From assembly GCA_017519405.1 (NCBI GenBank), contig JAFWSH010000005.1:62001-126000 (forward strand): a stretch of 64,000 nt of DNA, given 5' to 3'. This DNA is from Clostridia bacterium (GTDB taxonomy: Bacteria > Bacillota > Clostridia > Christensenellales > Aristaeellaceae). This document shows, piece by piece, positions 54,658 through 58,672 of the stretch (its first letter is position 1; every line of letters begins with the position of its first letter). Below the pieces are notes generated by a model. It worked only from the letters and a program-made list of their open reading frames with translations. It made no database searches and had not been told where the DNA came from. Position numbers and translations under genes: made by a program.

Positions 54658-55806
54658 TCAGCGGAGTTCCTCATAGTTGCCCAGCAGCACGAAGCGGTCC
54701 GCGTCGCCCCGCAGCTGGCGGATCAGGGTCCGGACGCTCTCCTTGCGCAGGGAGGCCTCGATGTCGAAGAAGAAGCGGAATTCGAAGTCCTTCCCCGGGA
54801 TGGGGCGGCTCTCCAGCTTGGTGAGGTTCACCTCCGCCGCGGCGATGTGGCTCAGGAGGCGGCAGAGGCTGCCGGGACGGTGGGCGGCGCTGAGCATCAG
54901 GGAGATCTTCCCGGCGCCCTCGTAGACCGTCATGTCCCGGGCGATGCAGATGAAGCGGGTGTAGTTGTTCTCCGTGTTGGCCACGCTCTCCCCCAGGGTC
55001 TCCAGGCCGTAGAGCATGCCGCTCTCCCGGGAGGCAATGGCCGCCAGGTCCCGCCGGCCGGAGGAGGCCACATAGGCCGCCGCCATGGCCGTGTTGGCCA
55101 TGGGGGTCACCCGGATGCCGGGGTGGGCCGCCAGGAAGGCGTCGCACTGCCGCAGGGCCTGCTCGTGGGACACCACCTCCCGGATCCCCGCCAGCTCCGC
55201 CCCCGGCAGGGCCAGCAGCCGGTGCTCGATCCGCTGGCGCACCGCCCGCACGATGTGGAAGCGGTGCTGCTCCATCAGGTCATAGACCTGGGTCACCGAG
55301 CCGGCGGTGCTGTTCTCGATGGGCAGCACGCCGAAGGGGCACATGCCCTTCTCCACCGCATTGAACACGTCGTTGAAGGTGTTCATGTAGAGGATGTCGG
55401 CATACTCAAACATCCGGGTGCAGGCCTGCTGGGCGTAGGCGCCTTCCGTGCCCTGGCAGGCCACCATGGCCCGGGCAGGGAAGGGCACAGGCGCACCGGC
55501 CACGGCCTGCTCCAGCGCGTCCTCCCCGGGGTCGGCGGGATGGATCCGCTCCGCCTGGTAGGCGCGGCTGACGCTGAACAGGGTCTGGTACAGGAGCTTC
55601 GTGTGCCGCTCCAGGTCCTCCCCCGCCCGCAGGGTCAGCCGGTTGACAATCTCCCGCTCCCGCCCCGTGTCCAGGATGGGCAGGCCTTGGGCCTGCTTGA
55701 TCTCCGCCACCTGGGCCACCAGGCGCATCCGCCGGGCAAACAGATCCGTCAGCTGGTCGTCGATGCCGTCCAACTGTCCCCGGATCTCCTTCAGGTCTGC
55801 TGTCAT
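54658..55806 (-). CDS. pheA: Bifunctional chorismate mutase / prephenate dehydratase
   Basis: PheA converts chorismate to prephenate and then to phenylpyruvate, the branch to phenylalanine. The 382-residue protein has a chorismate mutase domain (about 1-85; EIRGQLDGIDDQLTDLFARRMRLVAQVAEIKQAQG), a prephenate dehydratase domain (about 105-285; GTEGAYAQQACTRMF and GVLPIENSTAGSVTQVYDLM) and a C-terminal ACT domain (about 295-375; HRPGSLCRLLSHIAAAEVNLTKLESRPIPGKDFEFRFFFDIE) for Phe feedback. It lies 28 nt after aroF, so both are controlled by the upstream leader. Confidence 0.96.
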   Translation of the reverse strand: MTADLKEIRGQLDGIDDQLTDLFARRMRLVAQVAEIKQAQGLPILDTGREREIVNRLTLRAGEDLERHTKLLYQTLFSVSRAYQAERIHPADPGEDALEQAVAGAPVPFPARAMVACQGTEGAYAQQACTRMFEYADILYMNTFNDVFNAVEKGMCPFGVLPIENSTAGSVTQVYDLMEQHRFHIVRAVRQRIEHRLLALPGAELAGIREVVSHEQALRQCDAFLAAHPGIRVTPMANTAMAAAYVASSGRRDLAAIASRESGMLYGLETLGESVANTENNYTRFICIARDMTVYEGAGKISLMLSAAHRPGSLCRLLSHIAAAEVNLTKLESRPIPGKDFEFRFFFDIEASLRKESVRTLIRQLRGDADRFVLLGNYEELR

Positions 55807-55834
55807 GGACTGCTCCTTCCTTTCCTGCGCCGTC

Positions 55835-56842
55835 TCAGCGGCACGCATAGGGGCGCACGGCGTTCACCGTGGCCATCACGTCCTCAAAGGCCTCCGGGGT
55901 CAGGGACTGGGCGCCGTCGGAGAGGGCGTGGGGCGGATCGTTGTGCACCTCGATCATCAGGCCGTCCGCCCCGGCCGCCGTGGCCGCCGCCGCCATGGGC
56001 TTCACCAGCTCCGCCTTCCCGGTGGCATGGCTGGGGTCCACCACCACCGGCAGGTGGGTGAGCCTGCGCAGCACCGGCACGGCGGAGAGGTCCAGGGTGT
56101 TGCGGGTGGCGGTCTCAAAGGTGCGGATCCCCCGCTCGCAGAGGATCACGTTGTCGTTGCCCCCGGCCATGATGTACTCGGCGCTCATGAGCCACTCCTG
56201 GATGGTGTTGGCCAGGCCGCGCTTGAGGAGGATGGGCTTGCGGGTCTGGCCCAGGACCTTCAGCAGCTCGAAGTTCTGCATGTTCCGGGCCCCCACCTGG
56301 ATCACGTCCACCTCCTCAAAGAGGGGCAGGTGGGCGATGTCCATGATCTCGGTCACCACCGGGAGGCCGGTCTCCTTCTTGGCCAGAAGCAGCAGGCGGA
56401 TGCCCTCCTCGTGCAGGCCCTGGAAGGCGTAGGGGGAGGTGCGGGGCTTGAAGGCGCCGCCCCGCAGCAGTCCGGCCCCCGCCGCCTTCACCCGCCGGGC
56501 CACATACACGATCTGCTCCTCCGTCTCCACCGAGCAGGGGCCGGCGATGACCTGGAAGTGGCCTCCGCCGATCTTCAGCCCCGCCCCCACCTCCACCACG
56601 CTGTCGTCGGCGTGGAATTTCCGGTTGGCGCTCTTGTAGGGCTCCTGGACCCGCTGGACATTCTCCACGATCTCCAGGGACTTGATGACGTCGATGTCCA
56701 GCCGGGAGGTGTCCCCGATGAGGCCCATGATGGTCTGCTGCTGGCCCACGGACATGTGGATGGCGTAGCCCATGGACTTCAGCCAGTTCTGCAGGCTGGC
56801 CACCTGGGTCTCGTCGGCATGGTTTTTCAACAGGATAATCAT
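55835..56842 (-). CDS. aroF: 3-deoxy-7-phosphoheptulonate synthase (DAHP synthase)
   Basis: This enzyme joins phosphoenolpyruvate and erythrose 4-phosphate, the first step of aromatic amino acid synthesis. The 335-residue protein is the AroA-beta type, with an N-terminal ferredoxin-like regulatory domain (about 1-68; MIILLKNHADETQVASLQNWL) and a TIM barrel: FQVIAGPCSVET, LRGGAFKPRTSPYAFQGL, VIQVGARNMQNFELL, ILLKRGLANTIQEWL and VVVDPSHATGKAELV. It heads the aroF-pheA operon behind an attenuator. Confidence 0.95.
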   Translation of the reverse strand: MIILLKNHADETQVASLQNWLKSMGYAIHMSVGQQQTIMGLIGDTSRLDIDVIKSLEIVENVQRVQEPYKSANRKFHADDSVVEVGAGLKIGGGHFQVIAGPCSVETEEQIVYVARRVKAAGAGLLRGGAFKPRTSPYAFQGLHEEGIRLLLLAKKETGLPVVTEIMDIAHLPLFEEVDVIQVGARNMQNFELLKVLGQTRKPILLKRGLANTIQEWLMSAEYIMAGGNDNVILCERGIRTFETATRNTLDLSAVPVLRRLTHLPVVVDPSHATGKAELVKPMAAAATAAGADGLMIEVHNDPPHALSDGAQSLTPEAFEDVMATVNAVRPYACR

Positions 56843-56875
56843 CGGTTTCCTCTCCTTCTCCGTCTGTATGGCGAT

Positions 56876-56910
56876 GAAAAAGGCCCCGCGGGGACATGCC
56901 CCGCGAAGCC
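56876..56910 (-). terminator. Attenuator terminator ahead of aroF-pheA
   Basis: On the minus strand, GGCTTCGCGGGG and CCCCGCGGGGCC pair (56882-56910) with two wobble pairs and are followed by TTTTT. Its 5' arm can instead pair with a segment that overlaps the leader-peptide stop codon. Confidence 0.85.
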
Positions 56911-56911
56911 T

Positions 56912-56971
56912 TCACCTTGCCGTACAGGCTTTACACGCGGAAACATGCCCTACAGGCGAAGCCCGTAAAGC
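56912..56971 (-). promoter_or_regulatory. Alternative RNA pairings of the aromatic attenuator
   Basis: In the minus-strand transcript, segment 1 GCTTTAC (56965-56971) can pair with segment 2 GTAAAGC (56928-56934). Segment 2 AAGCCT (56926-56931), with CGCG (56936-56939) before it, can pair with segment 3 AGGCTT and CGCG (56902-56911), which is the 5' arm of the terminator. This is the 1:2, 2:3, 3:4 plan of classic ribosome-mediated attenuation. Confidence 0.75.
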
Positions 56972-57008
56972 TGAACACGTAAGCGCTCCGGTTGATGGTG
57001 CTGCGCAT
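56931..57008 (-). CDS. Leader peptide rich in Phe and Tyr (aroF-pheA attenuation)
   Basis: A 25-codon reading frame starts at ATG 57008, seven bases or so after GGGAGG, and ends at TAA 56931. It encodes one Tyr (residue 10) and four Phe (residues 12, 14, 17 and 23), including the run YVFSFTGF. The peptide lies just after a promoter and just before a terminator and the genes for Phe and Tyr synthesis. The stop codon is inside RNA segment 2 and the first two Phe codons abut or overlap segment 1, as expected if ribosome stalling at Phe or Tyr codons selects the antiterminator. It is too short for standard gene calling. Confidence 0.85.
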   Translation of the reverse strand: MRSTINRSAYVFSFTGFACRACFRV

Positions 57009-57038
57009 GCCGGTTCCTCCCGCGTTGATGTCGTTGTC

Positions 57039-57067
57039 AGGGTATCACAGCTCCCTGCGTCCGTCAA
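57039..57067 (-). promoter_or_regulatory. Promoter for the leader-aroF-pheA transcript
   Basis: On the minus strand, TTGACG (57062-57067) and TACCCT (57039-57044) have a 17-nt spacer with TGA before the -10. Confidence 0.75.
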
Positions 57068-57100
57068 GGGCAGGGCTGTTCTTTGTATGTTTTTCCCTGC

Positions 57101-58672
57101 TCAGCCGTCCTGCTGCTCCGGCGGCTCTGTCCGGTTCAGCTCAAACCAGAAGGTGGTGCCCTCCCCCTCCCGGCTCTCCACGCCGTAGGGGACGCCGTGC
57201 TGCTCCAGGATGCCCCGGACGATGTTCAGGCCCAGGCCGCTGCCGATCACCGCCCGGCGGTGGGTCTCCTTCGTCCGGTAGTAGCGGTTCCAGATCAGGG
57301 GCAGCTCCTCCGGGGCGATGCCCTTCCCGGTGTCCCGGACCTCCAGCCGGACCCGCCCCTCCCGCAGGGTCTGCTGCACCGTGACGGTCTTGTCCCCGCC
57401 GGTGTAGGTCAGGGCGTTGCCCAGCAGGTTGTAGATCACCTGGCCGATGCGGGTGGCGTCTCCCTCCACCCACAGGCGCTCCGCCGGCGCGAAGGCCACC
57501 CGGTAGCCGTCCTTCTCCACCAGCTTTCCCACCCGCCGGACGATCTCCTCCGTCCCGTCCGTCAGGCAGAAGGGGCCGATGTGCATGGCCACGCCCCCGG
57601 CCTGCATGCGGCTGAAATCCAGCAGCTCGCTCACCAGGGTGGACAGCCGCGCCGTCTCGTCGATGATGATCTGCATGTTCTCCGGGGTGTTCTCGTCGGG
57701 GATGTCCCGCATGGCCTCCGCGTAGCCCCCGATCATGGTCAGGGGGGTGCGCAGGTCGTGGCTGATGTTGGCGATGAGTTCGTGCTGCAGGTGCTCCACC
57801 TGGCCCAGCTCCTCCGCGGCCCGCTCCAGGGTGGTGTTCAGCTCCGCGATCTCCCGGTAGCCGTCGGCGTGGGCCGGCCGCTCATAGCGGGACTTGGCCA
57901 GGCTGCGGGCCGCCTCGTTGGTCTCGATGATGGGCCGGGAAACCCAGCCGGAGATGCCCCAGGCCAGCAGTCCCACCCCCACCATCACCAGCAGGGTGAT
58001 GAGGGTCATCTGGGCCCGGAGGGCGCTGACGGTGGAGGACACCGGGGAGATGCGGGTGTTCAGCAGCAAAACAGCCTCCGTCCCGTCCTGGAGGGTGAGG
58101 TCCCGGGCGTAAATCAGGGCCATGGCGCTGTCGTTCTCCCAGTCCCCGAAGCGGTCGCCGAAGGACCGCCTGCCCCGCCGGGTCTCCGACGCATCCGCGG
58201 TGTCGGGGTGCGGGGTCTCCCCGGTGCCGTCCCCGGGGGGCAGGGCCTCCGCCGGCAGCTGTCCGGGGCTGAACATGGCGCTCACCCGGAAGAGCCGGGT
58301 CACGGGTTTCTCCGCGGTCCGGGCCTGTTCGCACCAGCGGGCCAGGTCCTGGGCGCCCATCCGGTGGATCAGGCAGTTCCTGGTGCCCTCGGCGCTGACC
58401 AGGGGCGTCAGCTCCCCGTCCAGCAGCAGCACGCACACATCCCCCTGCACCGCCAGCAGGTCCGCCATCTCCTGCATCTCCTCCGGGGAGGCGGCCGTGG
58501 CCAGGCTGTCCGCCGTGGCGGTCACCTGGCGGATCCGGTAGGAACGGTAAAAGCTCTCCAGAAACACGATCTGGAAGAGCCAGAGCATGAGCACCAGCGC
58601 CGCCCCGAAGAGCAGCAGGGCCAGGGAGATCCGCCGCCGGATCCCCGGTCTTTTTTCTTTATTCCTTTTCAA
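57101..58672 (-). CDS. Two-component sensor histidine kinase
   Basis: This is a membrane kinase of about 523 residues. It has a first helix (about 14-36), a sensor loop (about 37-205) and a second helix (ITLLVMVGVGLLAWGISGWV), followed by a HAMP-like linker. The H box is HELIANISHDLRTPLTMIGGYAEAM, the N box NLLGNALTYTGG, and the G boxes DTGKGIAPEEL and GSGLGLNIVRGIL. The likely start is a TTG at 58672 behind GGGGAGTGGG, overlapping the regulator by 14 nt. An ATG at 58714 in the same frame has no ribosome binding site. The sensor loop gives no clue to the signal. Confidence 0.9.
   Translation of the reverse strand: MKRNKEKRPGIRRRISLALLLFGAALVLMLWLFQIVFLESFYRSYRIRQVTATADSLATAASPEEMQEMADLLAVQGDVCVLLLDGELTPLVSAEGTRNCLIHRMGAQDLARWCEQARTAEKPVTRLFRVSAMFSPGQLPAEALPPGDGTGETPHPDTADASETRRGRRSFGDRFGDWENDSAMALIYARDLTLQDGTEAVLLLNTRISPVSSTVSALRAQMTLITLLVMVGVGLLAWGISGWVSRPIIETNEAARSLAKSRYERPAHADGYREIAELNTTLERAAEELGQVEHLQHELIANISHDLRTPLTMIGGYAEAMRDIPDENTPENMQIIIDETARLSTLVSELLDFSRMQAGGVAMHIGPFCLTDGTEEIVRRVGKLVEKDGYRVAFAPAERLWVEGDATRIGQVIYNLLGNALTYTGGDKTVTVQQTLREGRVRLEVRDTGKGIAPEELPLIWNRYYRTKETHRRAVIGSGLGLNIVRGILEQHGVPYGVESREGEGTTFWFELNRTEPPEQQDG

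Follow-up and report, generated by a model that had tools for sequence, protein, structure and literature searches.

Probable leader-peptide control of aromatic amino acid genes

Attenuation by leader peptides is a textbook principle of gene control, and the enterobacterial pheL-pheA attenuator, represented in Rfam by the Phe_leader family, employs a Phe-coding leader peptide placed before the prephenate dehydratase gene. For the amino acid genes of Firmicutes, textbooks describe control by T-boxes and repressors. The original prediction of a Phe/Tyr attenuator ahead of aroF and pheA in a Clostridia bacterium drew on this contrast with Enterobacteria, which is weaker than claimed because leader peptides of Firmicutes are already in print: published work describes them at hisS/hisZ (PMC2965389) and at his operons, five Eubacteriales species among them (PMC9413887), and predicts, at shikimate metabolism genes, two upstream open reading frames (uORFs) with Phe and Tyr from a study of five genomes, including Clostridium novyi and Thermovirga lienii (Stav et al., 2019; PMC6429828). 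A predicted uORF with at least one Phe also precedes a terminator upstream of aroF in the uORFC-13-1 motif, which has 24 representatives, from Acholeplasma and environmental sequences (Brewer et al., 2021; PMC8632094).

The locus described here lies on the minus strand of a 64,000-nt stretch of DNA (hereafter, the window), and we read it, with a probability of about 0.92 for the full mechanism, as a ribosome-mediated attenuator of aroF-pheA transcription that monitors the charging of tRNA-Phe and tRNA-Tyr. It resembles pheL-pheA in its Phe-coding leader peptide, its mutually exclusive antiterminator and terminator and the prephenate dehydratase gene downstream, but differs in that the leader mixes Tyr and Phe codons, that aroF comes first and that a hairpin, denoted A below, is embedded in the leader frame and forms no part of the antiterminator. 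Compared by description only, uORFC-13-1 likewise has a Phe-codon uORF before a terminator upstream of aroF, whereas it comes from Acholeplasma and environmental sequences and has at least one Phe rather than a mixed Phe/Tyr run (PMC8632094). The uORFs of Stav et al. (2019), again compared by description only, share Phe and Tyr codons at shikimate genes and may be relatives (PMC6429828). The His leaders of Firmicutes are similar in using leader-peptide attenuation where T-box or repressor control is common, and different in their His codons and in the genes concerned, his and hisS (PMC2965389, PMC9413887). A literature search for such attenuators, with most subscription papers outside its scope, returned no description of the window's element; two of the sources above (PMC6429828, PMC8632094) may hold a relative.

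No Rfam 15 family matched the leader at the gathering threshold, and neither Phe_leader nor any other leader family matched at E up to 10 over 56700–57200, where nine unrelated weak matches were obtained (best E 0.099). The T-box model (RF00230) had no match at the window's leader at E up to 10. The window's genome (G000; 2.27 Mb, 37 contigs, 80.3% complete) contains seven T-box matches (L098–L104), one above the cut-off and none at aroF. Six of them precede genes assigned by Pfam to MetRS, a class I (I, L, M, V) synthetase, a PALP enzyme that reads as tryptophan-synthase-like, asparagine synthase, SerRS and a class II synthetase; the remaining one, L103, is a weak match with no clear gene assignment. 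Among 40 related loci, no T-box reached the gathering threshold, an insensitive test given that six of the seven matches in the window's own genome fall below the same cut-off. The sole gathering match within the window is an FMN riboswitch (RF00050; 667–790, plus strand; 120.5 bits). Taken as a whole, the comparison gives good support to the view that the element would be a member, or a family, of a known kind of attenuator; this branch is common in relatives and was not found among the Rfam families searched.

Layout and folding of the aroF leader

The features of the locus, with the evidence for each, are as follows.

57062..57067, minus strand: −35 hexamer, TTGACG (sequence)
57039..57044, minus strand: −10 hexamer, TACCCT, 17-nt spacer to the −35 hexamer (sequence and survey of relatives)
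57017..57025, minus strand: segment 1, ACGCGGGAG, weakly supported (MFE fold)
56931..57008, minus strand: leader ORF, MRSTINRSAYVFSFTGFACRACFRV (sequence; similar leaders in 29 of 29 elements)
56947..56971, minus strand: hairpin A, 11 bp, GCTTTACGGGC-TTC-GCCTGTAGGGC, within the leader ORF (both folds and comparison)
56926..56946, minus strand: segment 2, the 5′ strand of the antiterminator, core ATGTTTCCGCG followed by AAGCCT (truncated-leader fold and covariation with segment 3)
56896..56911, minus strand: segment 3, common to the antiterminator (3′ strand) and the terminator (5′ arm and part of the loop) (folds and covariation)
56877..56913, minus strand: predicted intrinsic terminator, 15-bp stem, 5-nt loop, T run 56881–56877 (fold and covariation)
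55835..56842, minus strand: aroF, DAHP synthase, 335 aa, starting 34 nt past the terminator (Pfam DAHP_synth_1 1.2e-78, DAHP_snth_FXD 5.4e-22)
54658..55848, minus strand: pheA, chorismate mutase and prephenate dehydratase, 396 aa (Pfam PDT 4.3e-56, CM_2 6.1e-20)

The promoter (TTGACG-17-TACCCT), the 25-codon frame with one Tyr and four Phe codons and the terminator with five T ahead of aroF all lie where the original prediction had placed them on the minus strand (57067–56876). The frame opens with ATG at 57008, closes with TAA at 56933–56931 and is provided with a ribosome-binding site, GGGAGGAA (57021–57014), which segment 1 overlaps; in the MFE fold, the pairing partner of segment 1 within segment 2 is 56943–56935. 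The terminator stem joins 56913–56899 with 56893–56879, and its T run ends at 56877. The aroF product is, by Pfam, a DAHP synthase with a ferredoxin-like N-terminal domain, and the start of pheA overlaps the end of aroF. Upstream, on the same strand, the histidine kinase gene of a two-component operon ends at 57101, and the leader occupies the space between it and aroF. With this gene ending so near, the hairpin could be a plain terminator of the two-component operon, aroF having its own promoter and the small frame and alternative pairings being due to chance. We regard this as extremely unlikely, considering that a promoter-like site separates the kinase gene from the terminator, that the latter stands 34 nt before aroF, and that frame, hairpin A and antiterminator are conserved with covariation in 29 elements (see below).

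The fold of the full leader, at −72 kcal/mol, has a z of −3.98 and was equalled by 1 of 200 shuffles; it comprises hairpin A, the terminator and a pairing between segment 2 and the ribosome-binding-site region. Once the leader is truncated before the 3′ arm of the terminator, hairpin A is accompanied by the antiterminator, in which ATGTTTCCGCG-TGTA-AAGCCT pairs with AGGCTT-CGCGGGGCAT; the signal is weaker (z −1.84; 9 of 200 shuffles as good). The stop codon UAA (56933–56931) sits where the two antiterminator helices join. The pairing of segment 2 with the 5′ region has a probability of 0.70 in the window versus 0.51 in shuffles (9 of 40 as high), that of segment 1 averages 0.57 across elements versus 0.45 in shuffles, a weak excess, and in the wider set of aroF loci 55 of 10000 permutations were as good. 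A lock formed by segment 1 when the leader is not translated is weakly supported by these models and would be the least certain step of the scheme.

Conservation of the element in relatives

A covariance model (R1), built from four aligned elements (the window, L003, L083 and L087) and covering hairpin A and the terminator with the antiterminator excluded, matched, with an E-value limit of 0.001, 34 of 308 genomes of the family, distributed over 9 of 50 genera. Thirty loci were recovered from this search and 29 kept, the four training elements included; five weak matches without a locus were left out, and the counts exclude both L134, in which the terminator is the only part present, and a minus-strand match in L115. 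Each of the 29 elements has a leader frame, set by an invariant Phe codon, with a ribosome-binding site and 4–9 Phe/Tyr codons; aroF follows in 28 elements, whereas in a single one, among L105–L133, the leader stands directly before tyrA. After aroF, tyrA was found in 12 elements and pheA only in the window; neither appears in 15, for which at most about 470 nt of DNA were covered; by eye, no link was seen between leader composition and the presence of tyrA downstream. The best-scoring promoter-like sites combine TTGA with a TA-initial −10 at 17–18 nt in 27 of 29 elements, L121 and L131 being the exceptions. A search of NCBIfam at E up to 1 gave no match for nine leaders, one of them altered.

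The RNA model proved far more sensitive than the DNA-level family search, which matched 4 of 200 genomes, the window's own among them; the DNA-level matches L084 and L085 look like chance by eye. At the level of the order, 7 of 396 genomes matched, three of them in the family (own included). By eye, L137 alone of the five further loci inspected has a leader before an aroF-like gene, and L135, L136, L138 and L139 look like chance hairpins; one further match without a locus was left out. Within the window's genus, 9 of 12 genomes have a match, and the two closest aroF genes, those of the window and G099, carry the element; inspection by eye found no leader near the same-genus aroF loci L088, L094 and L095 and a Phe/Tyr frame farther upstream at L089, the partial locus L097 being left out of the comparison. 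A second leader design, again by eye, is seen at the aroF paralogues of the genus (L090–L093 and L096; about 60% identical), whose short frames, for instance MPAAFAFTFKFPAYFAGFSA, include Phe codons and few Tyr codons and precede a different terminator.

Counted from the invariant Phe codon of hairpin A, which is TTT in 29 of 29 elements, codons −5, −4, −3, −2, 0 and +3 encode Phe or Tyr in 24, 27, 28, 28, 29 and 21 of 29, respectively. The two residues are swapped at individual positions (16 Phe and 11 Tyr at −4; 19 Phe and 9 Tyr at −2), and synonymous TTT/TTC and TAT/TAC changes occur upstream of the invariant Phe, which indicates that it is the meaning of the codons, more than their letters, that is preserved there. 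The window is the sole element with Val at −3, where the other 28 have Tyr or Phe, and for this reason may be a weakened copy, as judged from its sequence; its leader is among the weaker ones. Of the Phe/Tyr codons in the window's leader, Tyr10, Phe12 and Phe14 are the only ones, with perhaps Phe17, at which a stall would be able to free the antiterminator. Phe23, by contrast, is probably not a sensor: its codon lies within segment 2, a ribosome stalled on it would obstruct the antiterminator, and the position is mostly Cys (14) or Arg (7) in the 23 leaders that reach it.

Six of the 29 leaders stop early, at hairpin A, yet retain segment 2, such that the leaders appear to have two stop positions, each predicted to put the ribosome on or against the same antiterminator strand. 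The other 23 have similar ends, frequently GKACCRM, as might be expected of an arrest-peptide attenuator whose nascent peptide senses free Phe/Tyr in the exit tunnel, by the arrest mode known from TnaC. Nevertheless, such an arrest peptide is very unlikely, since the six early-stopping leaders lack that end and keep the RNA of segment 2, Phe and Tyr interchange at the sensing codons, and hairpin A together with the pairing of segment 2 can account for the similar ends.

Both the small frame and the competing pairings are conserved in the 29 elements, as the attenuation reading of the original prediction implied. The alignment was fitted to the terminator and hairpin A, not to the antiterminator, whose ten-pair core is nevertheless paired in 93.8% of 290 cells, against 19–71% when slid, and has 20 two-sided changes (for example, CCGC:GCGG versus CTGC:GCAG) versus 7.7 (sd 2.2) in shuffles, 0 of 500 being as high. 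Six antiterminator pairs have at least one two-sided change, which is not in excess (118 of 500 shuffles as high). The terminator and hairpin A are paired in 92.9% of 748 cells, with 45 two-sided cells versus 11.7 in shuffles; the values are 92.1% with two-sided changes at four pairs for hairpin A and 93.5% with changes at seven pairs for the terminator helix. The antiterminator had been drawn as AAGCCT/AGGCTT plus CGCG/CGCG: it exists and its core covaries, but the core helix is longer than named and the outer AAGCCT/AGGCTT helix is well preserved only at its three pairs next to the core, with no excess over slid versions. The upstream GCTTTAC/GTAAAGC pairing is likewise present but shows no covariation in the 29 elements (80.3% paired versus 80.0% in shuffles).

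Good conservation of hairpin A would also suit a leader bound by a metabolite or a protein, as in a riboswitch or a target of an RNA-binding protein, with the small frame merely keeping the RNA open. That is scarcely credible, however, in view of what is conserved, namely the Phe/Tyr meaning of the codons and the mutually exclusive helices, and no Rfam riboswitch or T-box was found at gathering, nor in the window's leader when the limit was raised to E 10. Codon-reading attenuation also fits the wider survey of aroF upstream regions, for which the best 80 of 587 aroF relatives were taken and 79 scored, the window not among them and L077 left out for its short upstream region. Frames with at least five Phe/Tyr in 10 codons precede 56 of these 79 genes versus 4 of 790 shuffles, and 55 of the frames are also accompanied by a terminator of −8 kcal/mol or better. 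Among several low scorers, L012, L033, L035, L049, L068, L076 and L078 counted as negative despite Phe/Tyr frames visible by eye, with poor ribosome-binding sites. The window's best 10 codons hold four Phe/Tyr (hand count), a level reached by 27 of 790 shuffles, so that the window alone proves no case, whereas its relatives do. Of these loci, 55 were selected for having a frame and a terminator at least as stable as −10 kcal/mol; in this set, the fit of segment 2 to its own terminator arm exceeds expectation by 2.6 kcal/mol (0 of 10000 permutations), although the own arm ranks first in only 7 loci and has a median rank of 13 of 55. The antiterminator strand shared with the terminator is indicated by the folds, by covariation and by this fit.

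Within the same best 80 of 587, the closest relative, L002 (OMSM01000296.1; aroF 88% identical), has no Phe/Tyr leader scored in 350 nt upstream, for which loss, another operon layout or an assembly join are candidate explanations. Among named records, the aroF genes closest to the window's come mostly from Clostridia assemblies, many of rumen or gut origin. Phe/Tyr-rich frames are also present before aroF in assemblies labelled Thermoguttaceae (L007), Oligosphaeraceae (L014), Planctomycetia (L034) and Treponema (L073), the first three recognized by eye; horizontal transfer or mislabelled bins could explain these.

Proposed mechanism and implications

Comparison supports the Phe/Tyr-exchangeable leader frame, hairpin A, the antiterminator, the terminator and the link to aroF. 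From these we infer translation, stalling, the direction of the response, pausing and the segment 1 lock, and that all of them occur in the cell. With both charged tRNAs plentiful, the leader ribosome would reach the stop codon at 56933 and cover segment 2, allowing the terminator to form. If either were short, the ribosome would stall at Tyr10, Phe12, Phe14 or Phe17 and leave segment 2 free to pair with segment 3 once the latter is made, and transcription would continue into aroF-pheA. Hairpin A probably pauses RNA polymerase, letting the ribosome catch up, and, when translation fails, a pairing between segment 2 and the region around the leader ribosome-binding site may form, which would favour termination.

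In a model that treats the ribosome as a simple mask and compares the antiterminator probability with that of the ribosome-free state, a ribosome on the best Phe/Tyr codon raises this probability in 26 of 29 elements, and averaging over the Phe/Tyr codons does so in 25 of 29. The window's element shows no stall contrast in this model (0.84 ribosome-free versus a maximum of 0.81 and a mean of 0.49 on Phe/Tyr codons). With the ribosome at the stop, the mask lies over segment 2, and the value of 0.00 obtained there is a direct consequence of this.

Chances are about even that these elements constitute an uncatalogued class of attenuators, common in Clostridia, in which a single mixed stretch of interchangeable codons responds to whichever of charged tRNA-Phe and tRNA-Tyr is scarcer and thereby sets the entry enzyme of the shikimate pathway, in a genome with T-boxes before genes for several other amino acids; the in-frame hairpin and the two stop positions would be a shared design that brings the ribosome to the same antiterminator strand. 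DAHP synthase catalyses the opening step of the aromatic pathway, and a Phe/Tyr leader frame before 56 of the 79 scored aroF genes (best 80 of 587), largely in Clostridia, stands against the familiar picture of T-boxes and repressors. With a curated model, annotation could be extended to many aroF leaders and short frames that are now blank, and the coexistence of leader peptides with T-boxes is a question that could be taken up in the window's genome.
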